From Sanchytrium tribonematis (lineage: Eukaryota > Sanchytriomycota > Sanchytriomycetes > Sanchytriales > Sanchytriaceae), in assembly GCA_018985235.1 (NCBI GenBank), contig JADGIG010000046.1:1-32105 (forward strand): 32,105 nucleotides of DNA, given 5' to 3'. This document shows positions 3,608 to 31,471 of this stretch, in pieces. Numbering within the stretch: position 1 is the stretch's first letter; each line of letters opens with the position of its first letter. A model generated the notes under the pieces. It was given only the letters and a program-made list of their open reading frames with translations. It was not told the DNA's origin and made no database searches. A program made the translations under genes and the position numbers.

Positions 3608-5155
3608 TTAATGCTCACACAATGAAAATTCCCTCTCATACAATTGCTCATTTCTTTCATCCATATAATATTTTCTTTCCTCCATCAATTTCAATCTAAT
3701 TTCTTTTGCTTCCTCCAAATGTATGGGATAATCCATATATCTCATTATTTTATCAAATATCAACTCTGGTAATCCACTTATCAATGATTTGTCTTGTAAA
3801 ATCTCCTTTTTAAACCAATCCATTTGCTGTGGTCCAACTTCCTTTGTACTCGTTATTTTATGATTGGGATGCACTAAAAAGAAACACAGTATCTTCCGAT
3901 GACCATTTTTACCCTTGTCAAGTAACTCAAATGGTTCTACTTTATGCTGATACAAATTAGGAAACACGATTAATTTTCCCTCTTGGATTTCAATTTCACC
4001 AATATTTTGAGACAATGGACCTTCATTAACGAGTCCATAAATCATTTCTACACCATTATCATCATTCTGTTCATAATTAGGCTCACATACACTTTGTCGC
4101 ATGCTCAAAAATGAATTTGAAATATTTTCAACATCGTAGTAATAAATGCCAGTTGCACAAATTTGTTCTCTAGTAGTGCCTTCTATATGCCATACACCCC
4201 CATGATACACTGGATTCTCGGGTGTTAATTGGATATTTGCTAGTTTGATAATGACTTGTAAATGACTTGGCAAATTTAAAATTTGATTTTTTGATTTTGG
4301 GGCATATAATGGGATTTGGGGTTGTTCAGGGACTCTGTTGTCATAATATACATCCCATGCATCATCATAATCCTCATCATTTTCAAAATTATCACGATTT
4401 AAATGTTCTGGCTCTTCTGGATACCAATTTGAATCCACTTGAATTCTATTGGTATATTTGTGAGATAAACAATATTGGAATAATGGGATAAATTCATTGA
4501 ATATAGTAGTGATTAATTCATATAAATGGGTGTGTTTGGGGTGTAAATTGTTGATATAGGACGTGATTTCATATTTGCCATTTTTCAACTCAAATTCGCT
4601 TGGAAGCCATTGATAATGAATTTGAATGTCATCTGATGAGGAAATAGGAGATTTTAATTGACCAGAATTCATTAGTTGTAGACAATTCTCTAGAGTAAAT
4701 GGATTGGATAATTTGGATTTTTCAGATAATGGAAATAAAGAGGGATGGACGATATCAAGCACTTGTTGGTTTGAATTTGGATGCCAATCGAGTAAATGAG
4801 ATGGTACATCTTGAAATTGAGCCATGATTTGCTTGAATTCGTGGTGTAAAGAAGATTCTATGCCATCAAATAATTGAAAAGTGCCATCTACTGGACCATA
4901 TGGCAAATCAAGTGAATCTTGCAACTCATCAAAGCAATATTGAATGATTTCATTTGGCAAATCTTGTTCAATCAATTCTTGCTTCCATTTTTGAGAATAT
5001 GTTGCAAATTTAATTTGCCAATTGGGTTTATTTTTAATAATTTCTAATATTTGCATGATTTGTAATTCTTTTAAACATTTGGGTTGTAATCCATCGCCAT
5101 AATCACCAAATTCAAATGGATAGCCATTTTCCAACATTGCATAAAATGTGGACAT
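3608..5155 (-). CDS. DUF4246-family protein (2-oxoglutarate oxygenase-like)
   Basis: One uninterrupted frame of 515 codons. The text matches what I know of the DUF4246 family, common in fungi: YHGGVWHIEGTTREQICATG, IYYYDVENISNSFLSMRQ, then KLIVFPNLYQHKVEPFEL and GHRKILCFFLVHP. This resembles a double-stranded beta-helix dioxygenase: a HIE triad start (about residue 320), a distal His in the QHKVEPF segment, and the following RKILCFFLV strand. The exact substrate is unknown. The N-terminal half (about 1-250) is less conserved and charged. The start ATG is only 41 bp from the divergent methyltransferase start. The stop TAA is followed 7 nt later by AATAAA. Family assignment is from memory of conserved strings; the biochemical role is inference. 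Confidence 0.8.
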   Translation of the reverse strand: MSTFYAMLENGYPFEFGDYGDGLQPKCLKELQIMQILEIIKNKPNWQIKFATYSQKWKQELIEQDLPNEIIQYCFDELQDSLDLPYGPVDGTFQLFDGIESSLHHEFKQIMAQFQDVPSHLLDWHPNSNQQVLDIVHPSLFPLSEKSKLSNPFTLENCLQLMNSGQLKSPISSSDDIQIHYQWLPSEFELKNGKYEITSYINNLHPKHTHLYELITTIFNEFIPLFQYCLSHKYTNRIQVDSNWYPEEPEHLNRDNFENDEDYDDAWDVYYDNRVPEQPQIPLYAPKSKNQILNLPSHLQVIIKLANIQLTPENPVYHGGVWHIEGTTREQICATGIYYYDVENISNSFLSMRQSVCEPNYEQNDDNGVEMIYGLVNEGPLSQNIGEIEIQEGKLIVFPNLYQHKVEPFELLDKGKNGHRKILCFFLVHPNHKITSTKEVGPQQMDWFKKEILQDKSLISGLPELIFDKIMRYMDYPIHLEEAKEIRLKLMEERKYYMDERNEQLYEREFSLCEH

Positions 5156-6649: not shown

Positions 6650-9254
6650 TTATTGTCGCATCAATTTAATAAACACATCTTCCAAAGTTCCTTGTGAAAT
6701 TCCAAAATTCACACTTGTTTCATTCTCTAAATAACCCAATAAATCCACCAATTTACCAGCATTGACACCCAATTCTACAATTAATGGGTTCTCATCAATA
6801 ATTTTAAAGTCTGGAATGTACTGTTTAATGATGGATTTCATTTGTTCATTCTCTTCTTTAGGAATATTAAAATTTAATCGATAAGGACAGCCATATTGAT
6901 GTTTTAATGATACCGCATCCCCAAATGCAACAAATTGACCCTTTTTCATGACAGAGATCTCATCTCCCAAAGCAGATGCTTCTTCCATCGAATGCGTTGT
7001 TAAAACAATGATTCGCCCCTTTTTAAATTTCTCTAAAAATTGCCAGACCAATCTTCTATTAAATGGGTCCATACCAGTCTAAATGAGTTTAAATTACAGT
7101 TGGTTCATCCAAAATTAGAAATTTAGGGTCTCCAATGGTAGAAATGACGACACTCAATCTCCTTTTCATTCCACCAGAGTATGATTTACTAGGAAGATGT
7201 CTGACATCCCATAATAATACCGCATTTAATCTTTCTTCTATTAATTTAGATTTCTCTGCTGCTGGCACATTTTTCAAATCACAGTACATATTTAAATGCT
7301 CTAATGCGTTCAACTCGCCATATAACAAGTCAAATTGGGGTGTGATACCACTAAATGCCTGGATATCACTGATACTTGATTTTACTGATTTTTGATGAAC
7401 CAGGGCATCTCCAGCAGATTGCTTCAGAAATCCACTTAATATTTTCAATGTCGTTGTTTTACCACCGCCATTCTGGCCTAGAAATGCCAATAATTGATTC
7501 TCTTTGAATACAAATGACAATCCTTTGACAGCCATCTTTTTGGCAGTGAATAATCCACCATATTCTTTCTTTAAATTCACCAATCTCAATTCATGATGTT
7601 CTAGATTGGTAATCGCTTGTTGTCGTTGCTTTAAAACACCTGTATCTTGACTAGATGGCTCATCTTCTAAATATTTACCAATCCATTCCTTAATGTCAGA
7701 AATAATACTTTGAGTGCCAAATTGCTTGTAATACTCTGGATCTAAAAAGAACCATGGTTTTTCTACTTTACCATTGGTATTGGTGACTATTTTATCAAAA
7801 TAAAGTGCCAAAATGAAGTAAAATAAGAAAATACCCACTAAAATGCCAAAACTATCCCCAGTACTGCCTGTATGATCCATTAAATTGGTAATGACACCCG
7901 GATAAGTGCTATTATATTGCTTGATAAATGTAGATTTATCAGCATCTGCCCAAACATATTTAGTAGGTGAAACCAAATCCCCCGTCGTTGAATTTCTAAA
8001 ATGTTGATTTAGCGTAAAGACGTCTTTAATAATCTTGTTGAGATTAAAAATAGGGATCAATTCTAATGCTTGATGGACAGACGGACTCATGACATCTGGA
8101 GAATACCAGAAATAATAAATTGGTGAATCTCCAGTTGAAACACTCATTAAAATACCTTCTACGATTTGTAATGCGCAACAAATGACCATGATGAAAATAG
8201 CAGTGAATAAAGCCAATCCAGGGCGTCTAATGCAACTGGCAATGGTCATTCCAAGAGCTGTGAAACTCATCAAATACATGAAATAACCCACAAATAAAAT
8301 GGAAGGATCTCCTTGGAAGATCTCAAAGTTGTAAATAATGCCCATAATCATGACAACAAGAGAATTGATTAAAATGATGGGTAATTGAGAAATCAACTGA
8401 GAAATGTAAAAAATGGATGGCCACACGCCAAATGCGACTAAACCAGAGATTAATCCCTTGCTCTCTTCATTTGTGATGGTAGTGATGATATTAATAAATA
8501 TTGGAATACTGGAAATCAATAAAAACAAAGGCAACAAAGATCTGACTGGATATTGTAAATCCATGGTATCCGAATTTAGAGGGATTTTAGGGAGTGGCTG
8601 CGTAGAATACTTCATTTTTAAGACTGGCTTGATACTACTAGGTGGATTATTTGTGTCTACTTTTAAATCATTGAAATTTAAAAATGCTTCTTCTAATAAA
8701 ACTTGAAATGAAACAGCTTGACCACTTGCACTATCACCAGATGTGCCCATATTGGTTTTATTTTGCCAAATCTCATAGTTGTAAATGTGTCTATCTAATT
8801 GATGAGTAAATTTGACACCTAAAGCCGTGGTATTTTGATTTTTAAAGATAAAATCATGCATTTTTGAATCTGTTGAAAATCCAACAATATCCATGTTTTT
8901 AGACAATTCAGTGACATCGGTAGACTCTAATTTGAATGCTTGACCACCATGGAGCACATTCAATTGACTCACAGTGTCCATAATCAAACTATTTAAAGGC
9001 GTAATTGGAGAATACGCAATAGAGATACATGGTGAATTACCAGGAATACATGCCATGACAGGTGCTACTGGACTGACAGTGGGGTCTAGATTACTTACCA
9101 AGGACGCATCAGAAGCAGCAGAGAGAATCCAATAACAAATTGATAAACTAATAACTGGTGTTAAAATCATTAGACAGAGCATGGTTCTCCATGATTTCAT
9201 TTGTAAGCGCGTATTCTTCTTAAGCATGACTTTTAATTGATTTCCAACAGTCAT
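6650..9254 (-). CDS. ABCA-type half transporter with one 19-nt intron
   Basis: A membrane domain is followed by one ATPase domain. The N-terminal helix (LCLMILTPVISLSICYWIL) is followed by a large luminal loop and a cluster of helices (SLLPLFLLISSIPIFINII and others), the ABC2-type layout of ABCA proteins. The ATPase has a Walker A-like FLGQNGGGKTTTLKIL near residue 595 (Gly where Ala is usual), signature YSGGMKRRLSVV near 690, Walker B FLILDEPT and H-loop IVLTTHSMEEA. The two frames join only if the 19 nt at 7079-7097 are spliced out, giving DEPTTGMDPFNRR; the product is then 861 residues. I use the ATG at 9254 (MTVGNQLKV) because further upstream lies promoter repeat sequence. The stop is CAATAAATT. 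Half-size ABCA proteins usually act as dimers moving lipids; the divergent neighbour is a candidate partner (inference). Confidence 0.9.
7079..7097 (-). other. 19-nt GT-AG intron in ABC transporter
   Basis: On the coding strand the intron is GTAATTTAAACTCATTTAG, phase 0, between ACT and ACT. Removing it converts DEPT-V-I-stop into DEPTTGMDP, the invariant Walker B and D-loop text of ABC ATPases. If retained, it gives a stop two codons in. Confidence 0.92.
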
Positions 9255-11959: not shown

Positions 11960-12940
11960 ATGTGGCTTCCTGTGATAGTTGCATTACAATCACTCAATCT
12001 ATTTCACGATCATAAAGTGATGACTTTGAAGCAACATGAGATGCAAAATATTGGCAATGAATTCCGCATGAAATTAGATGGAAATCACATTAAAGTCTAT
12101 CAACACCATCATTTAACCCATATAGCATCTATCCAAGTATCCAATAACCATATTAAATTATCCAACAACCATTTCACCCATTTCTTTCATTTTATCCATC
12201 CTGCGCAACAAATAGTCAAAATAGACCATCAAGCACATTCATTCAAAATTAATGAGTTCCAATATGATTTATTACATGTATTTCAATTAAAATGGCGATG
12301 TTCTACCCGTAATATCAAAAATGGCAATTATACTGAAAATCACGTACAATATACTGAATTTGATACTGTGATTTCTGGCAATGGACATGCATCTCAAGTC
12401 ATTTGGGAGTATATTGATAGTCATACAATCCAAATCAGTCATTATAAAAGAGGTAATGCCATTAAATTATCTAATTCTGATGTATTGGCTGCCTTGATTG
12501 ATCAAACAGATGATTCAATATTCACATGTGATATTAAAACTACCAATTCACCCTATTTACAAGTATCTGTTCAAAATAGAAATATTCAAAAATGCCAAAT
12601 TCATATTAAATTTGAAAATCAACTCATTTCTAAAATGTTGAGTGAGCATGGCAATTTAATCAAATTAATGGTATTTGGTCATTTCATTTATGTATTTATA
12701 GGTAGTCATCTATCTATTTCAGGAAATGTGATTTATATCATCATGAAACCAAATGAATATTACATGATTTCATCGATTGATTTTTTAATGAAATCTTTTC
12801 AAATTGGAGATTATATCATGAGTGGAAATGATATTGCCATTCAAAATAAAGTATCTGAAAAAATCAATGCTAAATATGTCAATACAGAAATAACAGATTT
12901 ACAACAATTTGCCATTTATTTTAGTCAATGGAAACAATAA
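11960..12940 (+). CDS. Tandem secreted family, member 1 (intact, function unknown)
   Basis: A 326-codon frame starting MWLPVIVALQSLNLF, a very short hydrophobic signal. It is the most divergent of four tandem paralogues (11960, 12969, 14013, 15044). Shared landmarks: an IASIQV-like strand near 55, then FQLKWRCSTRNIKNGNY near 110 (W-x-C-S core), Asn-rich strands, a GNLIKL turn, YVFIGSHLSISGN, YYMISSIDF, and a C-terminal FAIYFSQWKQ. Predicted beta-rich with a few cysteines, no transmembrane segment after the signal. I recognise no known domain. It lies 27 bp after the ABC stop, in the same orientation. The stop is CAATAATAAAA. An extracellular role is inferred from the signal alone. Confidence 0.75.
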   Translation: MWLPVIVALQSLNLFHDHKVMTLKQHEMQNIGNEFRMKLDGNHIKVYQHHHLTHIASIQVSNNHIKLSNNHFTHFFHFIHPAQQIVKIDHQAHSFKINEFQYDLLHVFQLKWRCSTRNIKNGNYTENHVQYTEFDTVISGNGHASQVIWEYIDSHTIQISHYKRGNAIKLSNSDVLAALIDQTDDSIFTCDIKTTNSPYLQVSVQNRNIQKCQIHIKFENQLISKMLSEHGNLIKLMVFGHFIYVFIGSHLSISGNVIYIIMKPNEYYMISSIDFLMKSFQIGDYIMSGNDIAIQNKVSEKINAKYVNTEITDLQQFAIYFSQWKQ

Positions 12941-12968
12941 TAAAATCTTTTTTAAAACATATCCCCCT

Positions 12969-13926
12969 ATGATTTGGTCCATTGTATTTGCCATTGACCA
13001 ATTGAGTTTATTTTGCAATTCTAATTACGTCCAATTAGTCAAAAATAAACCACAGATAATAGACAATTATCAATTGAATTTGCAAGGAAATCGAATTCAT
13101 ATTCTCAATCAACAACCATCTACATCCTGTTTTGGCCAATGTCATCAAAAATCATCCATTCATGTCAATTTTAAAAATGGATTATATTGGAACATGGACT
13201 CGTTTTACAAAGGATTCATTTCAAATGGACCAATTAAATTGTCAAATTGTGGCATTATTCAAAACCAAATGGATTTGTTCTAAGCGTGTCATTCAAAATG
13301 GTAAATATACATTTAATCCAGTAAATTATCATGTGTTTGGTAAATTAATCAATCATCAAATTACAGAATCAATTTATGAAGAAATTCAAATAAAATATAG
13401 GAATTATGATGAAATCGAGATATCAGCAGGTAAATCTCGGGTTGAAATGCGTGTATCTGATAAAATGGCAGTATTAATTCATGAAACAAGTGAATCTATT
13501 GTAACATGTGAAATTCATCAAATTGACGAGCCTTGGTTGGGTGAGTCGAGTCAAAACAGAGTAATTCCAAAATTAAATCTGTATTCATCAAAGGGTTACA
13601 GTCCGATAGAATTGGATCAAAATGGCAATTTGGTAGAAATCATTAAAAATGAAATTTATGCATTTATTGGATCTCATTTTGAATTTAGTGGTAATTTGAA
13701 TATTGAGAATATGGTTTATATTGTAGCAGATTCTGACAAGTATTATGCCATTTCTACAAGTGATTGGATGAACTATGAATTTGAAATTAAGAGACTTTTA
13801 CTAAGTGGGAATAAAGACGTCATTGTGCAAGGAAATGTAGATTCACGATTGGAAATTCATGCATCGCCTAAGAAATTTGCAAATCCATTTGAATTGGCCA
13901 ACTACTTGAAGAATTGGAAACAATAA
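12969..13926 (+). CDS. Tandem secreted family, member 2 (frame break)
   Basis: It starts MIWSIVFAIDQLSLFC, a Met-Ile-Trp signal. The first frame runs to about 13180 (SSIHVNFKNGLYW) and the second from there on (DSFQMDQLNCQIVALFKTKW, ICSKRVIQNGKY). Joined with one extra base removed, the length is 318 residues, close to members 1 and 4 (326 and 327), and the order of motifs matches: W-x-C-S, GNLVEI, YAFIGSHFEFSGN, ENMVYIVADSDKYYAIS, LKNWKQ at the end. The break lies somewhere in 13130-13200, most likely a one-base indel near the A5 run around 13175. A 49-nt GT-AG intron at 13164-13212 also restores the frame but deletes conserved text. Real pseudogene or assembly error cannot be decided here. 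Confidence 0.7.
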
Positions 13927-14012
13927 ATCAAGATCAAATCACATGACATGATCACATGATTTAAAATGATGCCTTTTGGAGAAATTCTTCATTATTTTTT
14001 CAAACCCCCTCC

Positions 14013-14974
14013 ATGTTTTGGTCCATTGTACTCGCCATTGACTCTATGGGATTATTCTGCAATGATAAATATATTCATTTAGAAACAAATCAACCACGAA
14101 ACTTTGAAAAATACCAATTGATTTTACAAAATGATCAATTAAAGGTATCCACTAATTGCGATTATAGATTTGCCATTTGTAACTTATTAAAAAAGACTTT
14201 TAAATTAGATCAGAGTGGTGAAACCATTCAATTTTCTGTTAAATCAAAAAAAGCAGGCTCATTTGTCAATCATTGACCCCATTCCACACCAAATGGCATT
14301 GTTCAGAAAGAGCCACTACGGATGATCACTATAATAACAATGTTGTGAGATATCACACTTTTGGCCAACAAATCACGCAGTCTAGCAAATTGAACATTCT
14401 TGATAAAATTATTTCTGTGAGATACACGAGCCACAATAGAATCAAATTAGAACCAACTGATAGTAATGTTCAAGTCATTTATCCTTCAAATACGATGAGG
14501 GTGTGGATCCAGAAATTTGAGAGATCCATTTTATCATGTGAAATATATTTTATTCCAGAGCCCTATTTGGCCACACCTTTGTGTGAAAGAGTGATTCCTG
14601 AATCATTTTCGATTTACTATATGCTGGAGAATCAATTATTAAGTATGGAATTTAACAATTATGGCAATTTGATTAAATTGTTTGAAAATGAGCCACAAAT
14701 GTATGCGTTTATTGGTGCAAATACTCGATTTGATTCTGATTCTGATGCTGTCCAAAACGAAAATATGGTTTATATTATTACAAAAGTCAATGAATATTAT
14801 GCCATTCCTACAAGGAATTGGATGAACCATGCGTTTAAAATTGAGGGACATTTACTAAGTGGGAATGAAAATGCCATTAAGAAATCACCAAAGAAAATCA
14901 CTGCAACTCAAGTGAATCCGGAATATATTAATTTGGCTAAATTCGCAACTTATTTACATCACTGGAAACATTAA
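14013..14974 (+). CDS. Tandem secreted family, member 3 (frame break at A7)
   Basis: It starts MFWSIVLAIDSMGLFC. The first frame reaches 14276; homology switches to another frame at the A7 run 14247-14253 (CAAAAAAAGC): KSRLICQSLTPFHTKWHCSE aligns with LKCQIVASFLTRWVCS in member 4. Adding one base gives about 320 residues. Downstream landmarks are intact: YAFIGANTRFDSD, ENMVYIITKVNEYYAI, LLSGNENAI and the end FATYLHHWKH. No GT-AG pair of suitable length restores the frame without a stop, so this is an indel rather than an intron. The stop is CATTAAATAG, lacking a clean AATAAA, unlike its neighbours. Confidence 0.7.
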
Positions 14975-15043
14975 ATAGTAAATTGTATTGACTAAATGTC
15001 ATTGAAATAACGCAAAGGAGGGGTCCATCTTAAAACCTCCTGA

Positions 15044-16027
15044 ATGTTTTGGTCCATTGTATTTGCTATTGACTCGTTGGGGTTATTTTGTACATCTCAA
15101 GTGTCTGAAGCACCCAAATATGTTCATTTGAAAAGTGAAAAAACACTAGTAGGTAAATTAGGTTTGAAAAGTGAAAAAACACAAGTAGGTCAATATGGTT
15201 TGAAATTAGAAAATGATCATATTCATGTTTACAATACAAATAAAGTGGCATCCATAAAAGTTGAAACTAATGATAAATTTGAAATTATTGGTACTGAAAA
15301 TTCATTTCAAATAGACCAATTAAAATGCCAAATTGTGGCTTCCTTTTTGACCAGATGGGTGTGCTCTATACGCGCAGTAAAAAATAATCTATATAGCCAG
15401 ACATTTGTGAAATATTCTGTAATAGTTGATCAAATTAACTCACAAAGAGATGGACCAGTAATTAATGGAATTAAATTTAAATACTCGTACACCGCTTATG
15501 ATCAACTTGAGATTTCATCAGTCATGTCAGATTCCGTTGTAATTGGCCCATCTCGTAGCCCTGCTGTATGGATTGTTAAATCAGATTCATTTATTAGGTC
15601 TTGTGAAATCGTTGAAATTAATCAATATTTGTTGCTTTTAAATGGATATACAAGAAATATTCCTCATTTTTATATTTATTTTGATGGATTTAGCATGAAA
15701 TTGGATCCATATGGCAATTTGATCAGATTATCTCAAGAGGAGCCAGAGATTTATGCGTTTATTGGAGCTAATGTGATTTATGATGAAGAAATTAAAATTA
15801 AAGTAGAAAATATGGTTTATATTGTAGCAGATTCTGACAAGTATTATGCCATTTCTACAAGTGACTGGAAAACATTTGAATTTGAAATTGAAGGACATTT
15901 TCTCAGTGGTAATGAAAATGCCATTCAGCAAAGAAATGTAGGCTCACAAGTGGAAAGTCATACATTGACTAAGAAATTTAAGAATTCATTTGAATTGGCC
16001 AGCTACTTGAAGATTTGGAAGCAATAA
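15044..16027 (+). CDS. Tandem secreted family, member 4 (intact)
   Basis: A 327-codon frame starting MFWSIVFAIDSLGLFC. It carries the full set of family landmarks: VASIKVETNDKFEIIGTENS, FQIDQLKCQIVASFLTRWVC, GNLIRLSQEEPEIYAFIGAN, VENMVYIVADSDKYYAIST, FEIEGHFLSGNENAIQ and the end LASYLKIWKQ. A 12-residue unit (LKSEKTLVGKLG) is repeated once near residue 30 (LKSEKTQVGQYG) and is not in the other members. The stretch ENMVYIVADSDKYYAISTSD is identical to member 2, which points to recent duplication or gene conversion. The stop is CAATAAATC. Function unknown; extracellular location inferred. Confidence 0.78.
   Translation: MFWSIVFAIDSLGLFCTSQVSEAPKYVHLKSEKTLVGKLGLKSEKTQVGQYGLKLENDHIHVYNTNKVASIKVETNDKFEIIGTENSFQIDQLKCQIVASFLTRWVCSIRAVKNNLYSQTFVKYSVIVDQINSQRDGPVINGIKFKYSYTAYDQLEISSVMSDSVVIGPSRSPAVWIVKSDSFIRSCEIVEINQYLLLLNGYTRNIPHFYIYFDGFSMKLDPYGNLIRLSQEEPEIYAFIGANVIYDEEIKIKVENMVYIVADSDKYYAISTSDWKTFEFEIEGHFLSGNENAIQQRNVGSQVESHTLTKKFKNSFELASYLKIWKQ
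15128..15199 (+). repeat. Two 36-bp in-frame tandem repeats
   Basis: Units 15128-15163 and 15164-15199 encode LKSEKTLVGKLG and LKSEKTQVGQYG. Each is 36 bp, so the frame is kept. The other family members have no such insertion. Confidence 0.85.
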
Positions 16028-16078: not shown

Positions 16079-18772
16079 ATGTACACGCTGTTGACTTCAT
16101 TTCTGGTTGCTGTCTCTATAGACTGTCCAATTATAATTCAATTGGCATTAGATTTAGATATCAAATATACAAATACTGAATATTTTATTCAATATGAAAA
16201 AGATTGTTGTTTGGGAGTTGGGGTGATTTGTGAGAATGAGCGCGTTACGGAGCTACATTGGGGATTCGCAGAGGATTATGGTAAACGGACATATCCAGAG
16301 ATTCAATTACCACCTAAATTACGCGTATTAGATATGTCTCATAGTATAAAAACTATGATTATTAAGAAATTACCAGATACGCTTAAAGTGATGGATTTTT
16401 ACAACACTAATTATCACGCACTTGAATTACAAACATTACCAAATCTCACATATTTCAGATATCATTGTTACTTTGATTTAAAACCACCTATTTTACCAAT
16501 ATTACCAGATACTTTGGAACATATTGATTTTGAATATTGCAGTTTAAAAATCTTTCCACTCAATGCAACAAATTTAAAAGAAGCATATTATGACTCTTGT
16601 AACGCTGCTGTTCCTTCTTTATTTCCAAACTTGCCAGAAACGATTGAAAGAGTTTCTTTATGGTCCTGCAATTTTCATGGTCAAGTCGGAGTTGATTTTA
16701 AACACGTTGTATATCTAGATATAGGTAGTAATTATTTAGAGGGTAATCTCACTATATCATCCCCAAATATCACTGTTTTGGAAACTCGTTATAATAAATT
16801 CGACAGAATGTTTGTGTCAAATATTGATCAAATCCAGTACTGTCGCACTGAAAATAACTATTTTGAACCAGATAATGTGAATGAACTAACTAGATTACAA
16901 TCCAAAGGTTGTACAATCGATTACAAATCTCCACCCTCACCAGATTGTCCAAATTTAATTCTATTTTTGAAACAATTAAATTTCCATTTATTAAATCCAA
17001 AGACATTTGATGATATAGCAAGCTTAAATAACTGCTGTGATAGTTTTATTGGGTCGATTTATTGTTCTGGGAATCGGGTAACAAGAATTGGGTTGGACTA
17101 TGGCAAGTTAAACGGCACCATTAATTCGACATTATTACCAGATTCCTTATATTATTTAAGTCTCAGTTCCGGTGAGATTGGTGGATTGTTTCCTGACTTT
17201 TCAGGTTTGGCCAATTGTCAAGAAATCAATTTGGGAAACAATCAATTGATTGGTCCAATTTATGGCAAATTGCCAAATAATTTAAAATATTTATATATTT
17301 CTAATAATCAATTAAATGGGACTATTCCAAATCTGAATAAACTCACAGATCTAGATGCGGGTTACAACTATTTTGATTCTGTTGAAAATCAATTATCAGG
17401 AAATAATTTAGAAAGTATTTCTATCCTTTTTAATAAAATAGCAGGCATTATTGACATGTCTAATTATGATTCAAAATTTTATGGCAAATTTAATTTTAGA
17501 AATAATTTGATTGATAAAATATTGACTTTAAAGAATGTAACACAAACTGGATGCGATGTTTCCTTGAATAATATTCCACAAGCAGATTCGATGTTTCCTT
17601 GAATAATATTCCACAAGCAGATTTGACGAATTTGACAAGTTGTGCTCACAAACTTCAATTGTATGCAGACCCAATTAATTTTCAAAGTTGTCAATTCATC
17701 AATCAAATGCTTCAAAAAATGAAATTTGAATTCAAGCCACAAAACAATTGTTGTGATTCACTATACGAAATTACTTGTAGTAATCAAAATGTGACTGATT
17801 TAATTTTATATGACAATGCTGGGCCATTATCGACTGTTGATGGCTATGCTTTTTCGATTTTAGATATTCCTTCAAGTTTGCAAACAATCACCATTGTAAA
17901 TCATTTTATTCAGACTGCACAAATACCAAACATCCCTGCGCATGTCAAGTATATTCAATTCACCAATGCAAATATTGGTGGAAAATTGCCTACATTATTA
18001 GAGGGATTAGAAACTTTAAAAGTGACAAATGCAAATTTAAATCAGACAATTCCACCATTACCAAGCACTTTAAAGGTATTAAAATTGATTGATTGCAATT
18101 TATATGGTCCTATTCCCGAATTACCCCCTAATTTACAAGAATTACAAGTACAAGGAAATAATTTGACAGGTCCATTGCCAATATTTCCTGCTTCTTTGAA
18201 AATTGTCATTCTTGGAGATGGTGCACGTGAAGGGAATGTATTTAATGACAGGCTCATTCTTCAAAATCCAACCACTTTAATACTTGGAAATACGAGTATT
18301 TACGATGTGCAGATAAGCAACACAACTTCATTGACCTATTGTGATTTATCATTTAGTCCACTTCAAAATAATATCAATATTGCTAATTTCACAATGTGTA
18401 GCAAGTATTATTTGACAAATTGGCCTCTAAATTTACTACAAAACACTGTTACAGAAAATTCTAAATCAAGTAATTTTTTTTTATCTAGTCGTGACTCGTG
18501 TATTCTATAGAGGAACTACCACCAATGTGATAAATATGACTGTTACCGACATGGTAGATAGTATACTAGTGACATCTGCATTCACCAACACTGCATTATT
18601 GCCAGTCAAATTCAATTTGCCAAAATTCTTTATCAAATGGACTCTACAAATAATATTTAGGGCATCTATTGACTTGGTTCTATTAATGGGTACATTATAT
18701 GGTAATTACTGGTTACAGAAACAGAAATTGAAAACTAAAAAAGTCATTTATTCCGTAGATGTGTCTCAATAA
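16079..18772 (+). CDS. Three-module leucine-rich repeat surface protein, one 19-nt intron
   Basis: It starts MYTLLTSFLVAVSIDC (short signal). Three modules follow, each opening with a cysteine-containing cap (DCCLGVGVICENERVTEL; NNCCDSFIGSIYCSGNRVT; NNCCDSLYEITCSNQNVT) and followed by LRRs of the plant/protist extracellular type (LPDSLYYLSLSSGEIGG, LPNNLKYLYISNNQLNGTIP, LPPNLQELQVQGNNLTGPLP). The end has a membrane helix (LQIIFRASIDLVLLMGTLYG) and a short basic tail. Two features interrupt the frame: a perfect 35-bp tandem duplication at 17554-17623, and a 19-nt intron at 18470-18488. Removing both gives an 879-residue protein. The duplication is a true mutation or an assembly error; as read it truncates the protein. 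The stop is CAATAAATC, 8 bp from the stop of the convergent hydrolase gene. Probable adhesion or recognition role (inference). Confidence 0.85.
17554..17623 (+). repeat. 35-bp perfect tandem duplication breaking the LRR frame
   Basis: 17554-17588 and 17589-17623 are identical. Collapsing them gives DVSLNNIPQADLTNLTSCAH in frame; as read, the first copy leads to SMFP and a stop at 17602. Confidence 0.93.
18470..18488 (+). other. 19-nt GT-AG intron in LRR gene
   Basis: The intron is GTAATTTTTTTTTATCTAG, phase 1. Splicing joins TENSKS to IVTRVFYRGTTTNVIN and so adds the C-terminal membrane helix. If unspliced, the frame stops at 18510 before that helix. Confidence 0.85.
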
Positions 18773-19854: not shown

Positions 19855-20556
19855 TTATAAAAATTGTGGACACTCGCCAAATCTCATATTTGTGGCTAAA
19901 ATACCATCTCGGATACATGCGTTTTTGATTGTTTGATATTTACCACTTACATAGGCACAAACTGTGTACTGACACGAATTTGGACATGCACCCATTTTGA
20001 TATCTGTGGCATGTGCATTTTGCGCAGCACATGAATTTGCAAATGTCTGTCTTTTGCCATTTAACAAAGCACATACTGGATTCTTTAAAGTACAAGGATC
20101 TCCAATTGGCACAGAACAAGCACCATCCACAATATTTGTAGCACCTTGTCGTGTTGCCTCACATCGATTTGAAAATATCTGCTTCTTTCCACCTAATACA
20201 GCACACACTGGTGCATAAATAGTAGGACAAATCTCAATTGGTTTACAAGCACCAGTTTGAATATTTGCCGCATTATTTAGTAATGCCAAACAAAGCGTGT
20301 CAAATTGTTTTGGTTTCTTATTGATTTCACCACATACTGGAGATGGTTTTTGATATGCTGGACATGTAATAGTACCATTGGTAGATCCAAGACATTTTGA
20401 TGTTGAAAATACAATTGCACCTGCTCGTGTTGCGTAACATTGATTTGCAAATTGTTGTTGTTTGTGGTCTTTAGTGACTGCACAGACTGGTAAATAGAAA
20501 TCTGGACACATGATTTCAACTATTGGAGTGGCTAAAGATAATGGAATCAGAAACAT
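19855..20556 (-). CDS. Secreted five-domain Kazal-like protease inhibitor 1
   Basis: It starts MFLIPLSLATPIVEIMC (short signal, cleavage probably before TPIVE or PIVE). Five Kazal-like repeats follow, at about residues 18-60, 64-105, 108-146, 153-190 and 194-231. A good one is CPTIYAPVCAVLGGKKQIFS followed by NRC and GAC. Each strong unit has four cysteines: C-x6-C (PVC), C about 13 later (N-x-C) and C at the end (G-A-C). The C1 and C5 half-cystines of classical Kazal domains are missing. The P1-like residue, two after the first Cys, is Asp, Thr, Leu or Tyr, not Lys/Arg, so trypsin-like targets are unlikely. It is the first of three tandem Kazal genes on the minus strand. No AATAAA overlaps its stop. 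Confidence 0.85.
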   Translation of the reverse strand: MFLIPLSLATPIVEIMCPDFYLPVCAVTKDHKQQQFANQCYATRAGAIVFSTSKCLGSTNGTITCPAYQKPSPVCGEINKKPKQFDTLCLALLNNAANIQTGACKPIEICPTIYAPVCAVLGGKKQIFSNRCEATRQGATNIVDGACSVPIGDPCTLKNPVCALLNGKRQTFANSCAAQNAHATDIKMGACPNSCQYTVCAYVSGKYQTIKNACIRDGILATNMRFGECPQFL

Positions 20557-20580
20557 GATATTGAAATGGTTGTGACTTGC

Positions 20581-20605
20581 CTTTTAACCACCAACACACC
20601 AATCA
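20581..20605 (-). promoter_or_regulatory. TGATTGG box and TTAAAAG element of Kazal gene 1
   Basis: On the coding strand TGATTGG lies at 20605-20599 and TTAAAAG at 20587-20581, 42 and 24 nt before the ATG. Same order and spacing as in the other secreted genes. Confidence 0.5.
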
Positions 20606-20731
20606 CGACCTTGGATGTTTAATTTATTCAACTTGCAATGACTTGGGGCACTTGCTTCTATCTTGTAATCAATTTACGGATTGATTTACCAAGTGGGCTA
20701 TAAAAATAAATAATCGAGTTTAATAAATTTA

Positions 20732-21469
20732 CTAAAGAGTTGCTTTGCAATTCGACATCGATACGACTGCGTAACCAGCATTTTCAGCCAAACATTGATT
20801 GTTAAACTTTTTAAATTTTCCATCTTTTGATTTTGCACAAACTAGATCAATATTAGCAGGGCAAATATCGCCATTTCCACCATTTCCACCTCCTGTTTTT
20901 GGACATGAACCTGATACAATTGGTGAAGCACCTTGTCGATTCGCATGACACCAACTAGAAAATGTTTTTTGGATTTCATTCACTGTGCCACACACTGGTT
21001 TATCAACTGAGGGACATGGACACGCACCATCTTTCATTTTAGTTGCTTTATCATTTTGAGCAGCACATGCATTTGGATATGTGATTTGTTTGCCATTTTT
21101 AGTAGCACACACAGGTTTCTTTAAAGTGCACGGATCTCCAACAACTGGTTTACAATCCCCACTTTTAATTGGAATTGCTTTGGCTGCCAAGGCTGCACAA
21201 ATATTTGGATAATTTTTTTGTTCTTTGTTAATTGTAGCACAGATATTCAATGAATTGAAACCATATCCTGAACAAGGAACTTGTCCATTTTCAGAAGTTG
21301 GACATTCAGAGTTTCTGAAAACAACCGCCCCCTTTTTCCCAGCTTCACATGCGTTGTTATATTCCGATTGCTTTCCATTTTTGTAAGCACAGACTGTTTG
21401 AATCACATCCGTACACATGATACCATCAATAGCAAAAGAAAGCGTCATCAAAAACATTGCTGATATCAT
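20732..21469 (-). CDS. Secreted Kazal-like protease inhibitor 2
   Basis: I start at 21469 (MISAMFLMTLSFAIDGIMC), since the upstream in-frame ATGs at 21502 and 21499 lie across the TATA box. The product is about 245 residues with five Kazal-like units, for example TVCAYKNGKQSEYNNACEAG, KPVCATKNGKQITYPNACAA and KPVCGTVNEIQKTFSSWCHA. A Gly/Asn-rich linker (GGGNGGNGD) precedes the last unit. The cysteine pattern is again four per unit, with P1-like residues Asp, Leu, Ser and Ala. Units 2 and 3 share order and linkers (CKP..GDPCTLK) with gene 1, so the genes come from a tandem duplication. Function is likely defence against or control of foreign proteases (inference). Confidence 0.85.
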   Translation of the reverse strand: MISAMFLMTLSFAIDGIMCTDVIQTVCAYKNGKQSEYNNACEAGKKGAVVFRNSECPTSENGQVPCSGYGFNSLNICATINKEQKNYPNICAALAAKAIPIKSGDCKPVVGDPCTLKKPVCATKNGKQITYPNACAAQNDKATKMKDGACPCPSVDKPVCGTVNEIQKTFSSWCHANRQGASPIVSGSCPKTGGGNGGNGDICPANIDLVCAKSKDGKFKKFNNQCLAENAGYAVVSMSNCKATL

Positions 21470-21484
21470 TTTGAGAGCATCTCC

Positions 21485-21510
21485 TTTATAAAGACCCATC
21501 ATACCAATCA
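21485..21510 (-). promoter_or_regulatory. TATA box and TGATTGG box of Kazal gene 2
   Basis: Coding-strand TATAAA is at 21490-21485, only 15 nt before the ATG at 21469, and TGATTGG at 21510-21504, 34 nt before it. This leaves almost no 5' UTR if transcription starts about 25-30 nt after TATA. Confidence 0.6.
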
Positions 21511-21582
21511 GCCATGTGCAAAATTAATTTATAGTCTTGCACTGACTTGCTTGAAAAACAGTACATTTCAATTCATTTTCAT

Positions 21583-22208
21583 TTATTTTGTTTTTGGACA
21601 CGCACCATCTGTAATACTGCTGGCTCCCTTGTGTTGCGCACGACACTTGTTTTTAAAAGTGTATTTCTTTTTGTTTAGAGTTCCACACACATGGCTGATA
21701 GTTGCTGGACATTGTGAAATTTCACAATCCCCTCCTGTAATTTCAGTTGCTTTTTGTCGATCTGCTTCACATTGGTTTGAAAAAGTTTTTCTTTTTCCAC
21801 TTACTGTCCCACACACTGGATTCCAATCTGCAGTACAAATGACGACTGGTGGGACTACTGGTGGAGCAGGAGGACATTTCCCATCCGTAATGCTCGTTGC
21901 TTTTTGTTTATTCGCTTCGCACATATTCAAAAATGTTTGCTGTTTCCCATTTGCTGTCCCACATTGAGTTGACCACAAGCTGGTGTTTCCCTGGAATATC
22001 CTGAAACACAAACAATTTCGTCACTTCCAGTCGTCAAAATGACACATTTTGAGGATCTAAACACGGTAGCACCTGCTTTAATGGCTTCACATTCATTTGG
22101 ATAAGTGAATTGTTTGTGATTTAATGCACCACAGACTTCTTTCACTGTTGTTGGACAAGCATCGTCAATTGGGGCTGCAAAAGAAAGAGTAATGAGCAAC
22201 ATGATCAT
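21583..22208 (-). CDS. Secreted Kazal-like protease inhibitor 3 (frame break)
   Basis: It starts MIMLLITLSFAAPIDDAC. The first frame gives one complete unit (VKEVCGALNHKQFTYPNECE) and the start of a second (ETPACGQLN). A second frame gives CGTANGKQQTFLNMCEANKQ, then units with NPVCGTVSGKRKTFSNQC and SHVCGTLNKKKYTFKNKC. The switch falls in 21951-21990. Deleting 14 nt between two TGTGG copies restores a normal 13-residue Cys spacing, which suggests a faulty fusion or a duplication within a Kazal domain. A Pro/Val linker (CPPAPPVVPPVVIC) precedes unit 3. The stop is AAAATAAATG, with AATAAA across it. As read, the protein would end after one domain. Confidence 0.75.
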
Positions 22209-23849: not shown

Positions 23850-25469
23850 TTAGACAAGTTCCATTCGCTGATTCTGTGGTCTTGGTTCAATTGTTTCTGA
23901 AGGACTTCTTTTTCCACCTGTTATCCAATTACCAAATCTTTCAAGAATACCAGGTTTATCTGGCGTAATCGGAGCGGCGTCTAACCCTTTCGGCAAATCT
24001 AGGGGTTTATTTTCTCCAGCTTGATCCAGTGCCGCGCCTGCTGAATCTAATGCATCATTCATTGAGTTCATCGTTGCATCCATTTTATGATAATTATTTC
24101 TATTTGGTCTGTTGCCACGATAAATTCCAGTCCGGTGTTTAATGTTTTCCACCCCATCACTGAATTTAGTCCAAATTTTCTTTACCGCAATTGTTTTGAA
24201 AAATGATTTCATGAGAATTGTCGATGTTTGCGACAAGATTTTCAAACCACCAAGAGTGACATGGCCTGTACCTTTAGCTACATCTTTGAAAGATGTCGAT
24301 GATTTGATTTCATCTACGCCTTCAAGTATCAAATTGATGGCATCAAAATTATATTCCACCAATTTCTTACCAAATTCCTTGGCCTTTCTTAATCCTGGTA
24401 TTCGATCTAATAATTTTTGCATTTTAGTTTGTTCAGGTGAAATCTGATCTTTTACATTTGCAAATTTGGATTCAATATCTTTAAAGATCTCTGGATTATT
24501 CAATTGTTTTAAAATGGTGTTATCATTTGTAATGAATTTCAATTGATTGTATGCAATGGCTTCAACCACATCTTTTACTTTTTTCTGAGTAAATTCATTT
24601 TTTTTAAGCTCCTCTCTTTTTGCTTGTTTTTTTATCAAAGTGGCTTTAGGCATATTCTTTTTAATCCAATTGTCAATCAGTACATCAGTAACAATATCAA
24701 TTGCATCTGGTCGTTGGAATAATTCTGTGAATTTCCGTTGCTCAGGTGTCAATTTGCTCAAATCATTTTCTCTGTTTCCAGCTTCAATTTTCTTCCAATT
24801 TTCACTCTTGATCTTGTTTTCATCCAATACTAAATCTGGAGATGCCAGATATAGACCAATTTCTTTCATATTTTCTGGATTAGTGATTAATTCCAATAAT
24901 CCATATGCATTTATACCAGACAAGAGTCTTATGTCGCCTTTTTTGATACCCAACATCACTTTCTTGACATTCTCGGGAGTGAGAATTTCCTTGTTCGTGG
25001 TCAATGTCGATAAAAATTCTATCATTTCTGGGGTTCTAGATGGTTTTGTCATGTAATCAATAAAATGTAATTGTTCTGGTGTCAATTTGCTATAATCTTG
25101 AACTTTTAAAGCTTTTCCTAGTTCCACCCAAGTATCTAACCATTCCGGTGTTGCAATAGATGCTTTTAGAAATGCTTCTTCAGTTGCATCTAAAGTTTCC
25201 AAACTGTTTAATATTTCAAGTAGCTTCTTTTGGTTTTCATTCAACTTCTTTTCATTATATTTGCCCTTTGAATATGATCTCTGAATGGCCTTGAAATTCT
25301 CAGTAGTTGAAACAGTTTTTAATTCCATTAAGAGTTGTAGAAAACTTTTTGATGGTTCAGTCACTGTTGTTTCGTCTTGCGTAATTGGTTGTTCTGCAAC
25401 TGGTTGTTTTGCTCTTAGTAAACCTTTAAGATTTAAGGGTATTGCAAATAGCAATGTTATCCAAATCAT
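23850..25469 (-). CDS. LT.EQ secreted family, member A (long)
   Basis: I start at 25469 (MIWITLLFAIPLNLKGLL), because the same string begins members B and D; an upstream ATG at 25490 lies in the promoter motif. The product is about 539 residues with no cysteine visible in the mature part. Several diverged units of about 45 residues have the form EN..AI....GD..LT.EQ..L: TTENFKAIQRSYSKGKYNEK, VQDYSKLTPEQLHFIDYM, TPENVKKVMLGIKKGDIR and RENDLSKLTPEQRKFTEL. These are followed by a C-terminal region starting NFDAINLILEGVDEIKSS with a hydrophobic stretch (GGLKILSQTSTILMKSFF) and a low-complexity polar tail. The helical repeats resemble no family I can name. The stop is TAATAAAA. Confidence 0.75.
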   Translation of the reverse strand: MIWITLLFAIPLNLKGLLRAKQPVAEQPITQDETTVTEPSKSFLQLLMELKTVSTTENFKAIQRSYSKGKYNEKKLNENQKKLLEILNSLETLDATEEAFLKASIATPEWLDTWVELGKALKVQDYSKLTPEQLHFIDYMTKPSRTPEMIEFLSTLTTNKEILTPENVKKVMLGIKKGDIRLLSGINAYGLLELITNPENMKEIGLYLASPDLVLDENKIKSENWKKIEAGNRENDLSKLTPEQRKFTELFQRPDAIDIVTDVLIDNWIKKNMPKATLIKKQAKREELKKNEFTQKKVKDVVEAIAYNQLKFITNDNTILKQLNNPEIFKDIESKFANVKDQISPEQTKMQKLLDRIPGLRKAKEFGKKLVEYNFDAINLILEGVDEIKSSTSFKDVAKGTGHVTLGGLKILSQTSTILMKSFFKTIAVKKIWTKFSDGVENIKHRTGIYRGNRPNRNNYHKMDATMNSMNDALDSAGAALDQAGENKPLDLPKGLDAAPITPDKPGILERFGNWITGGKRSPSETIEPRPQNQRMELV

Positions 25470-25529
25470 TTTGTCACCATTGGATTCCATTTTCTTTTTG
25501 ATTCTGGCACAGATTTCTGTATCCAATCA
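25470..25529 (-). promoter_or_regulatory. Promoter of member A: AAAAAGAAAATGGAATCC and TGATTGG
   Basis: The coding strand has AAAAAGAAAATGGAATCC at 25499-25482 and TGATTGG at 25529-25523. The first matches AAAAGAAGTGGGAT before members B and D, at the same distance from the ATG. Confidence 0.5.
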
Positions 25530-25611
25530 AGAAAGGAGTAAAATCTGATTTTAAATGACACAGAATTAATATCAAATGACAGTGCCTGACTCATTATTAT
25601 AACGATGTATC

Positions 25612-25627
25612 TGAAAAACAGTACATT
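25612..25627 (-). promoter_or_regulatory. Upstream element TGAAAAACAGTACATT
   Basis: TGAAAAACAGTACATT (plus strand) occurs identically at 25612-25627 and 21552-21567, 143 and 83 nt upstream of minus-strand ATGs. A shorter AAACAGTACATTT is at 27577-27588. Related text at 26754 and 28712 reads AAAACA[AG]TTTAGCACCC. Confidence 0.4.
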
Positions 25628-25666
25628 ATCACATGATTGTAAAATGCTTAAGTATCCTTATTTATT

Positions 25667-26590
25667 TTAAAATGGGTGAAGTTCACCCTTAACACGAGAA
25701 TCATTCCCTCCTCTTTTCGCTGCCCCGTCAGTAATATCTCCGTTAGGTAAGTCAATTTTTGGTGGCTCTGTTGAACCAGTGGTCTTCCAAGACGGATCAA
25801 GTATTCCATCCTTTATTCCATCTTTTCCTCCAGTTATTTCTTCTCCAGCCAATACTGCTTCTGCACCCTCTAAAGTGGACTTGACATGGTCACCATTCAT
25901 CCCTTTCACACGTCTTACTGCATTTTTGCCTGCTTCATAAGCACTCACTAATTTCTTCCATGCAAGTGTTTCTGACAACCTCTGAACAATTGAATTTCTT
26001 AAAATACTTGTCAATATTGAGTTGCCTAGACCTTTTAATGAACCATAAATGGTAAAAAGCATTCTTAATGGGTCTGATTTTAAATCCTTCAACGTTGTCT
26101 TCAATTTTTTAATGGGATCGTCCTTATTTGGTTGTGCAAGTGTAGCTATTTCAGATGGTGTAATTGGTGTTTGATCTTGAAGTGGAAGCATTTTGAATCG
26201 ATCCAATCTAATCAATACATACATTTGCTCCGTGGTTAATTTGCTAATATCGCCATTCTTATAGGCTGCCTGGACTGTATTGATATTTTCCTTTGAAAAT
26301 ATTTTTTCAGAGTCACCATTTTCAAAGTGTTCCATTGCCTCCAAATTATTGAATGCTAAATCGAATGCGACTTTAGTTTTAGAATCTTTTGATAAGATAA
26401 TAATTTCAAGTTGGACTTGATTTAGTTGATCCATAGAAGAACCAGCTTGGATAATTGCTTCTAAATTGCTTTGGGTCAATATTTCCATGATTTTTAAGAC
26501 GTCCTTGGAATATGTTAGTTGTAACGTAGGTTGAGTCGGCACTCCTTGTAAAGCTTGTATTCCCGCATAAAGTAAAGTAATCCAAATCAT
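25667..26590 (-). CDS. LT.EQ secreted family, member B
   Basis: Starting at 26590 (MIWITLLYAGIQALQG), the product is about 307 residues; the longer open frame begins with GTG and is not used. The repeat unit is clear: FSKENINTVQAAYKNGDISK followed by LTTEQMYVLIRLDRF. The C-terminal part (DPLRMLFTIYGSLKGLGNSI) corresponds to the glycine-containing amphipathic block of the other members, followed by WKKLVSAYEAGKNAVRRVKG and a polar tail rich in Gly and Asp. Cysteine is absent. It has TGATTGG and AAAAGAAGTGGGAT upstream. AATAAA begins one base after the stop. Secreted; function unknown. Confidence 0.75.
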   Translation of the reverse strand: MIWITLLYAGIQALQGVPTQPTLQLTYSKDVLKIMEILTQSNLEAIIQAGSSMDQLNQVQLEIIILSKDSKTKVAFDLAFNNLEAMEHFENGDSEKIFSKENINTVQAAYKNGDISKLTTEQMYVLIRLDRFKMLPLQDQTPITPSEIATLAQPNKDDPIKKLKTTLKDLKSDPLRMLFTIYGSLKGLGNSILTSILRNSIVQRLSETLAWKKLVSAYEAGKNAVRRVKGMNGDHVKSTLEGAEAVLAGEEITGGKDGIKDGILDPSWKTTGSTEPPKIDLPNGDITDGAAKRGGNDSRVKGELHPF

Positions 26591-26924
26591 TGTGACCGAG
26601 GTGTATCCCACTTCTTTTCAATGACTACACAGATTTACTTACCAATCACCAGCACAATCACAAATGACACAGATATTTGCACCAATAATAAATGGGGTAA
26701 ACTCTATTTATAAATGACACAGATCCTGATTGTTTATTGGATCGTCTGTTTGAAAAACAATTTAGCACCCCACCGTGATGGCATCAAAATATTTGTATGA
26801 CTGGGCCACATCATAAAAGTTAGTAGATATTGATGCTGTTAATGCAAATGAGTAGAAATATTTATAATTAATAAATCAAGTCACGAAAAATAAAATTAAA
26901 AGAATCCCGATTTATTTTGTATTT
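26591..26924 (-). promoter_or_regulatory. Promoter region of member B
   Basis: Coding-strand AAAAGAAGTGGGAT is at 26618-26605, TGATTGG at 26648-26642, and an upstream conserved block at 26754-26779 (AAAACAATTTAGCACCCC then ACCGTGAT). AAATGACACAGAT occurs twice (about 26661 and 26712). The right part is the downstream region of the pseudogene ending at 26925. Confidence 0.5.
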
Positions 26925-27452: not shown

Positions 27453-27742
27453 CCACTCCTTAAAAAATCTTGAGGATACTCGATATCGTCCTTTCGCAAT
27501 GCTCTGGAATTTGTGTGTTGCTATATGCACTCTTCAATTTTCGTTTTGCACCAATATTTTGTTTTGAAACGGAATAAACAGTACATTTGAAGCTATTTTG
27601 AAATTATTCTGCTTCACTTCTTCTTCAAATGTTGGCTGCTTTCCAATTTGAGATTGCTCTGTGCCAATACCGATAAAATGAAACCTGCATCATTAGTCCC
27701 GGTAATAATTCTGGATGCTCAAATCTATTCAAAATCATAAAT
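27453..27742 (-). other. Decayed 5' region of member C
   Basis: This gene-free stretch holds short fragments reading like the family in changing frames (for example RALRKDDIEYPQDFL), plus AAACAGTACATTT at 27577-27588, the upstream element of active members. It is consistent with the former start and promoter of member C after loss. Confidence 0.4.
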
Positions 27743-29744: not shown

Positions 29745-29791
29745 GCGCAATGTCGGACTGAGATGTTTCATCAAAATAATTGGTGTTGTAG

Positions 29792-29798
29792 CCAATCA
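29792..29798 (-). promoter_or_regulatory. TGATTGG box before member E
   Basis: The coding strand reads TGATTGG at 29798-29792, 47 nt before the ATG at 29744. No clear TATA element lies between. Confidence 0.4.
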
Positions 29799-29868: not shown

Positions 29869-31132
29869 TTATTGTTTGATGACAGGTGCTGGTAGTATTT
29901 TGCCTTCTACACTTCCAAATCCAACACAAAATGATTCTCCAACACAAATACCACTCATTTTCACACTATCCCCATCTTCAATAAATGTTCTATTTTCTCC
30001 CTCAATATCTAATGTTTTGGTGCCATTCCATGTTAATTCTAATAATGAGCCATATTCTGACTCAGTTGGACCACTAATTGTCCCAGATCCACATAAATCT
30101 CCACTTTGTAAATTACAGCCATTGACGCAATGGTGTGCAAATTGCTGATGAAAAGACCAGTACATATGCTTTAAATTGCTATTACAAATGACTTTAGAGT
30201 GTTTTTGAGTGGATAATTCCACAGATAATTTCACATCATACGTTTCTAAATGAATTCAATTTACGGTTTTTAGGGCCATTTGTAGGTGTCAAATACGACA
30301 TTGGAGATGGATTTTGTGGTGGTCCTTGACATTTGAAGGGTTCTAATGCATCTAAAGTGACAATCCATGGAGAAATAGAAGTTCCAAAATTCTTACCTAA
30401 AAAGGGTCCTAATGGCACATATTCAAATGCTTGGATGTCTCTAGCAGACCAATCATTCATCAATACAACTCCAAAGATATGATCATTGGCTTCACTAATG
30501 GGAATAGGCTGTCCCAATTCATTTCCTTTTCCTACAAAAAATGCCATTTCTAATTCAAAATCTAATCTTTTAGAGGGTCCAAATGCGGGTTGATGTGGAT
30601 CTTTGGTTTTTAATTGACCATTTGGACGTGTAATGGGTGTACCACTGATTACAATGGAGCTAGCTCGACCGTGATAGCCCACTGGCAAATGGGTCCAATT
30701 TGGCATTAATGCGTTATCTTTGCCTCTAAACATGGTACCTACATTTGTAGCATGTTCTTTAGATGCATAAAAATCAGTATAATCTCCAATTTTAGCAGGT
30801 AAATGCATTTTGACACTCGCAACAGGAATCACAAATTCACTATATTTCTCATGATTTGCAATATTAGAGCCTTTTTTAAACAATTCTTGGATTTGATGAC
30901 GTACGGATTGCCATACTGGTTTACCCATTTCCATAAAATCATTTAAATATGGTTTATCAAATGGATTTGATTGTAATTTCAATAATTGCAATTTGCACAA
31001 TAATGATAAATCAATCACGTTCTCACCAATAATAGTGCCACCGCGTTTGATATTATTGGTTGAAAAGATGCCAAATGGGATATTTTGGATTGGAAATGGA
31101 TGATCCTTTGCGACATTGAAAATGGAGATCAT
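29869..31132 (-). CDS. FAH: Fumarylacetoacetase, one 19-nt intron
   Basis: Hydrolyses fumarylacetoacetate to fumarate and acetoacetate, the last step of tyrosine breakdown, in the cytosol. The start at 31132 (MISIFNVAKDHPFPIQNIPF) matches the N-terminal SH3-like domain of the family; the frame further upstream has no homology. Active-site text is all present: GDYTDFYASKEHATN (metal Asp and general-base His), NWTHLPVGYHGRAS, LDFELEMAFFVGKGN (two metal Glu), MNDWSARDIQAFEY (metal Asp) and LGKNFGTSISPW (Lys). After the intron at 30246-30264 is removed, SPMSYLTPTNGPKN joins QTYDVKLSVEL and gives 414 residues, close to the 419 of the human enzyme. SGTISGPTESEYGSLLEL closes the domain. The stop is CAATAAATC. 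Confidence 0.96.
30246..30264 (-). other. 19-nt GT-AG intron in FAH
   Basis: The intron is GTAAATTGAATTCATTTAG, phase 1, in the codon for Gln. Splicing gives GPKNQTYDVKLSVEL, matching the conserved DINLSV strand of fumarylacetoacetases. It shares the ends GTAA and CATTTAG with the ABC gene intron. If retained, a TGA follows. Confidence 0.93.
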
Positions 31133-31471
31133 ATTTGTATCAAAAAATATTGCAAATTTATTTATTTTTGATTTAATCATCTGGTTTGTATTTTTTGACA
31201 ACTTCATCAGATTTTTTAATTTTTCTTTTATTCTCTGTTTGGTTAATGAACCCTTTCTTTTCAAATTTTAATTGGACTTCTAATCTTCAATCTTTCAAAT
31301 TTCTGGTGTTTTATTTGGGACTCAAAAGACCCTGTTGACTGCGTATTAGGCCATTTACCCACATTTTTATTCTTCCAATCAAAATTATCCCAAGTCTACG
31401 GGCAGGTCTGTTGTATTCGTAAACTGCCTCTTGCAAATACTTATAAACACGCTGAGATCTTTCAAAATATC
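31133..31471. promoter_or_regulatory. 339-bp divergent intergenic region with TATA box
   Basis: TATAAA is at 31442-31447, 24 nt before the ATG at 31472. CCAATCA is at 31375-31381. I see no other element, no tRNA and no long frame. Confidence 0.45.

Follow-up and report, generated by a model that had tools for sequence, protein, structure and literature searches.

Nearly all introns of the algal parasite Sanchytrium tribonematis appear to measure exactly 19 bases

Genes and introns of the window

Sanchytrium tribonematis is a microscopic fungus parasitising algae. The stretch of its DNA analysed here, 32,105 nucleotides of contig JADGIG010000046.1 and in the following called the window, carries three genes whose reading frames are each interrupted by a segment of 19 nt (Table 1). 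After removal of positions 7079-7097, the gene of an ABCA transporter forms one frame on the minus strand, from an ATG at 9254 to a stop at 6650, in which ...LILDEPT and TGMDP... are joined. The resulting DEPTTGMDP is invariant in 7/7 aligned proteins, namely the joined protein itself, the close relatives P0001 and P0057 and four more distant proteins, three of them named chytrid. An earlier note on this DNA had placed a 19-nt, phase-0 GT-AG intron here and claimed that its excision yields exactly this peptide; the coordinates and the restored peptide were confirmed, and the intron reading is supported. The best database match of the transporter was a EukProt protein with 68% identity. Ranked by E-value, the first named matches were long transporters of a ciliate and of Basidiobolus; among all named matches, the top identities over most of the query (43-49%) were fungal, many of them from chytrids.

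Table 1. Position, strand and supporting evidence of the introns and exons in the window.
Feature	Position	Strand	Sequence	Evidence
19-nt intron, phase 0, GT-AG, ABCA transporter gene	7079..7097	-	GTAATTTAAACTCATTTAG	Frame joining and homology
Predicted branch-point A (position 14 of the intron, within CTCAT)	7084..7084	-		Putative branch role
ABCA exon 1 from first in-frame ATG, 719 codons	7098..9254	-		Pfam ABC_tran, ABC2_membrane_3
ABCA exon 2 including stop, 142 codons	6650..7078	-		Frame and aligned proteins
19-nt intron, phase 1, LRR/FNIP-type gene	18470..18488	+	GTAATTTTTTTTTATCTAG	Frame joining and motif (score 19.9) only
LRR/FNIP gene, part 5' of intron	17599..18469	+		
LRR/FNIP gene, part 3' of intron	18489..18772	+		
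19-nt intron, phase 1, fumarylacetoacetase gene	30246..30264	-	GTAAATTGAATTCATTTAG	Frame and homology
Fumarylacetoacetase exon 1 from first in-frame ATG	30265..31207	-		
Fumarylacetoacetase exon 2	29869..30245	-		Domain match, relatives

Two further 19-nt introns had been proposed for the window, and the coordinates of both proved right; that at 30246-30264 is backed by homology, that at 18470-18488 by motif and frame. Once the exons of the fumarylacetoacetase gene are joined, a single FAA_hydrolase domain covers the junction (Pfam), and the relatives run uninterrupted at this site, where the few junction residues are poorly conserved. The best matches of this protein were one ENA protein, followed by four proteins of Blastocladiomycota. 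Homogentisate dioxygenase, belonging like fumarylacetoacetase to tyrosine breakdown, carries a 19-nt intron as well (locus L016, 2959-2977).

Among the neighbouring features, a 35-nt tandem duplication in 2.1 copies (17550-17623) shifts the frame between the LRR frames 16079-17602 and 17599-18510, and stems either from mutation or from an error introduced during amplification or assembly. Broken frames at 2-2898, of which one contains an integrase core and another a reverse transcriptase domain (Pfam), are read as a decayed retroelement, and a DUF4246 protein (E 2.8e-105) is encoded at 3608-5155. Three clusters of adjacent look-alike predicted secreted proteins lie at 11960-16027, 19855-22208 and 23850-29795; one member is cysteine-rich and Kazal-like by eye, and the four members scanned gave no Pfam match.

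Length distribution

The intron class was followed through a genome sample of 6.34 Mb in 311 contigs. In 256 kb of this sample together with the window (288,105 bases), segments were counted that lie between two arms of at least 60 codons each, open when joined and closed if the segment stays. With the ends GTA..[TA]AG this gave 18 segments of 19 nt and three of 20 nt, against 0-3 at each other length from 10 to 40 nt, and eight controls with altered ends gave 0-2 at 19 nt over the same bases. At 20 nt the control GTG..[TA]AG also reached 3, equal to the real count, so that the evidence for the 20-nt minority lies in its motif and in the frame-blind scan. With plain GT..AG ends the contrast was weaker (14 at 19 nt vs 3-8 in five controls, 232 kb).

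The frame-blind scan covered the full 6.34 Mb with the pattern GTAA-N(3-33)-TTATTTAG. Since the reversed pattern gave more matches than the real one (322 vs 156), the raw count is no evidence, and it is the length distribution that counts: among 100 listed of the 156 matches, 54 measured 19 nt, ten 20 nt, one 18 nt and none 21 nt, with the remaining lengths scattered at about 1.2 per length. A scoring matrix, for which 20 of the frame-joining hits had been selected by eye as training set, was applied to 303,533 bases and returned 31 segments of 19 nt and eight of 20 nt, the background being about 2 for each length. Because the training set was picked by eye, these matrix-based counts are partly circular, which does not apply to the frame-joining and frame-blind counts or to those of the conserved T and A given below. 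Extrapolated from the matrix counts, and from a sample that is not random, the 6.34 Mb would hold roughly 700 introns.

For these end motifs the background was flat between 21 and 500 nt, with no excess indicating a longer class; end motifs other than GTA..[TA]AG were covered up to 120 nt only. The distribution is thus that of an ultra-short class, narrow, below 25 nt and without longer companions, with lengths of 19 or 20 nt. From 42 candidate rows, three doubtful by eye, four touching a contig end and four with fewer than 100 codons were set aside, leaving 31 clean cases, five of which were 20-nt introns. A scan with length histogram, of the kind that the earlier note had proposed as a check, gave a sharp 19-nt peak, frame-joined in 288,105 bases as well as frame-blind in the 6.34 Mb, and the presumed population fixed at 19 nt is correct as to this peak but not as a strictly single length. 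One segment of 15 nt with a high motif score (GTAAATTTAATTTAG, locus L015, 8050-8064) was left aside as chance, its downstream arm comprising only 15 codons; it is either that or a rarer, shorter intron. Altogether, this genome appears to carry hundreds of introns, nearly all of exactly 19 bases, which are among the shortest known.

Protein repair after removal of the introns

Joined proteins with both arms of at least 45 codons were available in 27 cases, 14 of which were tested, and the junction was continuous in 13, an exact restoration of conserved proteins as expected of U2-type introns. Ten joined proteins were sent to Pfam, and in nine a single domain spanned the junction: a kinase, an FAA hydrolase, a helicase C, an inositol phosphatase type, a septin, an NAD kinase, a homogentisate dioxygenase, a SNF2-type helicase and OST3/OST6. 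In the tenth, a MutS-like protein, the junction falls between domains and no Pfam domain crosses it. Compared with solved structures, the joined SF3B1, RPB1 and RPD3 were free of gaps at the junction; gaps away from it were present in RPB1 and RPD3.

The gene of SF3B1, the protein that grips the branch site during splicing, has a 19-nt intron and that of RPB1 a 20-nt intron, and once this single intron is out, neither RPB1 (1,669 codons) nor SF3B1 (912 codons) contains a second interruption. The EukProt entry P0241 represents the SF3B1 of the same genome, with 100% identity across 79% of the query length, and stops inside the intron with the tail SIGSFF; the other top matches were three EukProt/ENA proteins with 64-73% identity, followed by named early fungi.

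These genes bear on the reading of the segments as errors of assembly or sequencing, or as marks of gene decay. Published sanchytrid genomes derive from whole-genome amplification and single-cell assembly (PMC8371127), and in the window the 35-nt duplication does break a frame, but errors or decay would not share one length and one motif, nor would they leave RPB1 and SF3B1 otherwise free of interruptions, and this origin is accordingly considered very improbable.

Intron anatomy and splicing machinery

The donor reads GTA, in most cases with A as the next base (13/20 of the seed segments that trained the matrix), and the acceptor is mostly TAG (17/20). The acceptor merges with a yTnA motif, whose A is separated from the exon by five bases. 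In the frame-joining set, which was chosen without regard to a branch motif, T at -8 together with A at -6 occurred in 18/18 segments of 19 nt and 3/3 of 20 nt, and in 28/163 segments of the remaining lengths between 10 and 120 nt. The additional base of the 20-nt introns sits between the donor and the putative branch A. GT-AG ends combined with a donor and a branch consensus are features of U2-type introns. Because only five bases separate branch and exon, little room is left for a polypyrimidine tract; a search for the large subunit of U2AF in the 6.34 Mb, which amount to about 57% of the 11.2 Mb published, gave 20 weak matches and none over the cut-off.

Genes for U6 snRNA (61.8 bits, ACAGAGA kept) and U2 snRNA (115.9 bits, GTAGTA kept) both scored over the cut-off. 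The U1 candidate, at 43.7 bits, lies below the Rfam cut-off of 69.5 and has a canonical 5' end (ATACTTACCT). Of the spliceosomal components U1, U2, U6 and SF3B1, the last three are present, and U1 is a weak candidate.

Retention of 19 or 20 nt (3n+1, 3n+2) always shifts the frame, and each of the stops TAA, TAG and TGA ends long frames in this genome. In 21/31 clean cases the retained reading stops inside the intron and in the others within 33 codons, in agreement with the frameshift and stop that the earlier note had anticipated.

Splicing itself, the branch nucleotide and the steps of recognition are what we infer from sequence. U1 would recognise GTAA at the donor and U2/SF3b the yTnA branch site fused to the acceptor, five bases from branch A to exon; the span from donor to branch, with the branch A at position 14 or 15, would set the total intron length, and excision would join the exons exactly, retention shifting the frame.

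Programmed translational bypassing, in which ribosomes skip a segment that is kept in the mRNA, would likewise place segments of fixed length inside frames that are otherwise stopped. Known bypasses, such as those of phage gene 60 and the mitochondrial byps, need matching take-off and landing codons. Here the triplets flanking the segment on its two sides agree in just 1/31 cases, and neither GT-AG ends nor a branch motif nor snRNAs are predicted by bypassing, which we regard as next to impossible. Introner-type mobile introns, marked by target-site duplications at their ends, were dropped on the same count of three-base matches (1/31).

The segments are thus almost certainly, as far as sequence can tell, U2-type spliceosomal introns of a sanchytrid fungus, forming a genome-wide ultra-short class in which 19 nt is the rule and 20 nt the minority. 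This intron reading, put forward in the earlier note, accounts for the exactness of the length, for the GT-AG ends and the constant position of the putative branch point, and for the precise restoration of essential proteins.

Position in genes and turnover

The introns lie towards the 3' ends of their genes: in 28/31 clean cases the upstream arm is longer than the downstream arm, and the quintiles of relative position hold 0, 2, 3, 9 and 17 introns (sign test 2.3e-6, Kolmogorov-Smirnov 2e-7, n=31). When 60 codons are taken off each upstream arm, the count is still 28/31. This bias is to be read with the provisos that starts are first ATGs, that a further intron would shorten an arm, that cases were selected with a trained matrix and that n is 31. 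Fungal introns are reported to be lost preferentially at 3' ends (PMC8476143) and intron-poor species to retain 5' introns (PMC7738191), so that, measured against what these sources give, the bias found here is the reverse of the usual one and contradicts the usual rule for intron-poor species.

Two, one and three close relatives, respectively, lack the introns of ABCA, fumarylacetoacetase and SF3B1 at the corresponding site; these relatives are taken as sanchytrid-like, and their SF3B1 and ABCA stretches run uninterrupted. Such absence is meaningless in ENA proteins if these are spliced models; P0001 and P0243 share the EukProt frame-calling name style of P0241. The ABCA relative P0057 ends with ...GRVILL-YFKFI-stop where others have LTTHSM or LTSHSM. 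Back-translated, YFKFI-stop reads G-TAY-TTY-AAR-TTY-ATH-TAG, 19 nt that fit the intron class, and judged from this peptide only, the relative may carry a 19-nt intron elsewhere in ABCA.

Recent gain is the simplest reading of the absences in relatives, with three genes as its basis; on the same three genes, repeated loss may account for them instead. From the absences, the P0057 peptide and the 3' location in 28/31 cases, the opposite of the pattern left by cDNA-mediated loss, it could further be supposed that sanchytrids are still gaining ready-made introns of 19-20 nt near 3' ends, their length being a target set by the spliceosome and not the outcome of gradual shrinking. This supposition is tentative, and we hold it to be somewhat more probably wrong than right.

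Host genome and earlier knowledge

Sanchytrids are placed as sister to Blastocladiomycota, and the S. tribonematis genome is given as 11.2 Mb with 34.64% GC and an N50 of 11,874 (PMC8371127). GC of the sampled sequence was 34.7%. The single TPPP match, of 174 aa, is the long form expected for S. tribonematis, for which 174 aa are reported, with 180 aa in A. gromovi (PMC10459994). A universal SSU primer site found no match in the 6.34 Mb sample. Ubiquitin gave eight matches; because the two examined are single ubiquitins fused to ribosomal-protein tails, the search for the rhizarian polyubiquitin insertion came out empty. Rhizarian (mikrocytid) and ciliate affinities were dropped, the protein relatives being fungal.

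No paper on sanchytrid introns was found in the open-licence PMC literature and, as far as seen within it, an ultra-short intron class of nearly fixed length is new to fungi. In the genome paper, frames were called by TransDecoder on contigs, and the word 'intron' occurs there only in a reference title (PMC8371127). Proteins called as open frames from contigs of this phylum can be expected to end prematurely wherever such an intron occurs, as exemplified by SF3B1, and truncated calls of this kind bear on phylogenomics and on claims of gene loss.

Comparison with known short-intron systems

The earlier note had named nucleomorphs and heterotrichs as comparable and as not fitting, rightly, since the genome is fungal; mikrocytids and Loxodes are short-intron groups absent from its comparison. 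Chlorarachniophyte nucleomorph introns of 18-21 nt (as cited in PMC10245619) overlap in length with those described here, but belong to a relic algal nucleus and have a broader range. Loxodes magnus comes near with a mean of 19.3 nt, but its distribution is broad with a mode of 17 nt and its UGA context-dependent (PMC11441545), whereas here lengths are 19 or 20 nt and all three stops close frames.

The mikrocytids Mikrocytos mackini and Paramikrocytos canceri (Rhizaria) are likewise parasites whose conserved introns fall into a single narrow range of sizes, 16 nt (217/224) or 17 nt in their case, but form an unrelated lineage (PMC10245619). That study reports none in metabolic or transporter genes, whereas in the present genome such introns interrupt the genes of ABCA, fumarylacetoacetase and homogentisate dioxygenase. 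As to fungi, losses favour 3' ends across 263 species, in contrast to introns sitting towards 3' ends here, and no sanchytrid is named in the text of that survey (PMC8476143).

With the sanchytrids, the short list of lineages whose ultra-short introns are of fixed length (heterotrichs, mikrocytids, nucleomorphs) would gain a fungal phylum, and with it an independent case for comparing the geometry of splicing. Stentor coeruleus shares the fixed length, the GT-AG ends, the five bases from branch A to exon and conserved U1/U2/U6 pairing regions, but is a ciliate with introns of 15-16 nt and the branch A at position 10 of 15 (PMC9505925). With the same distance from branch to exon and a span from donor to branch four bases longer in the fungus, the two constraints would be separable.
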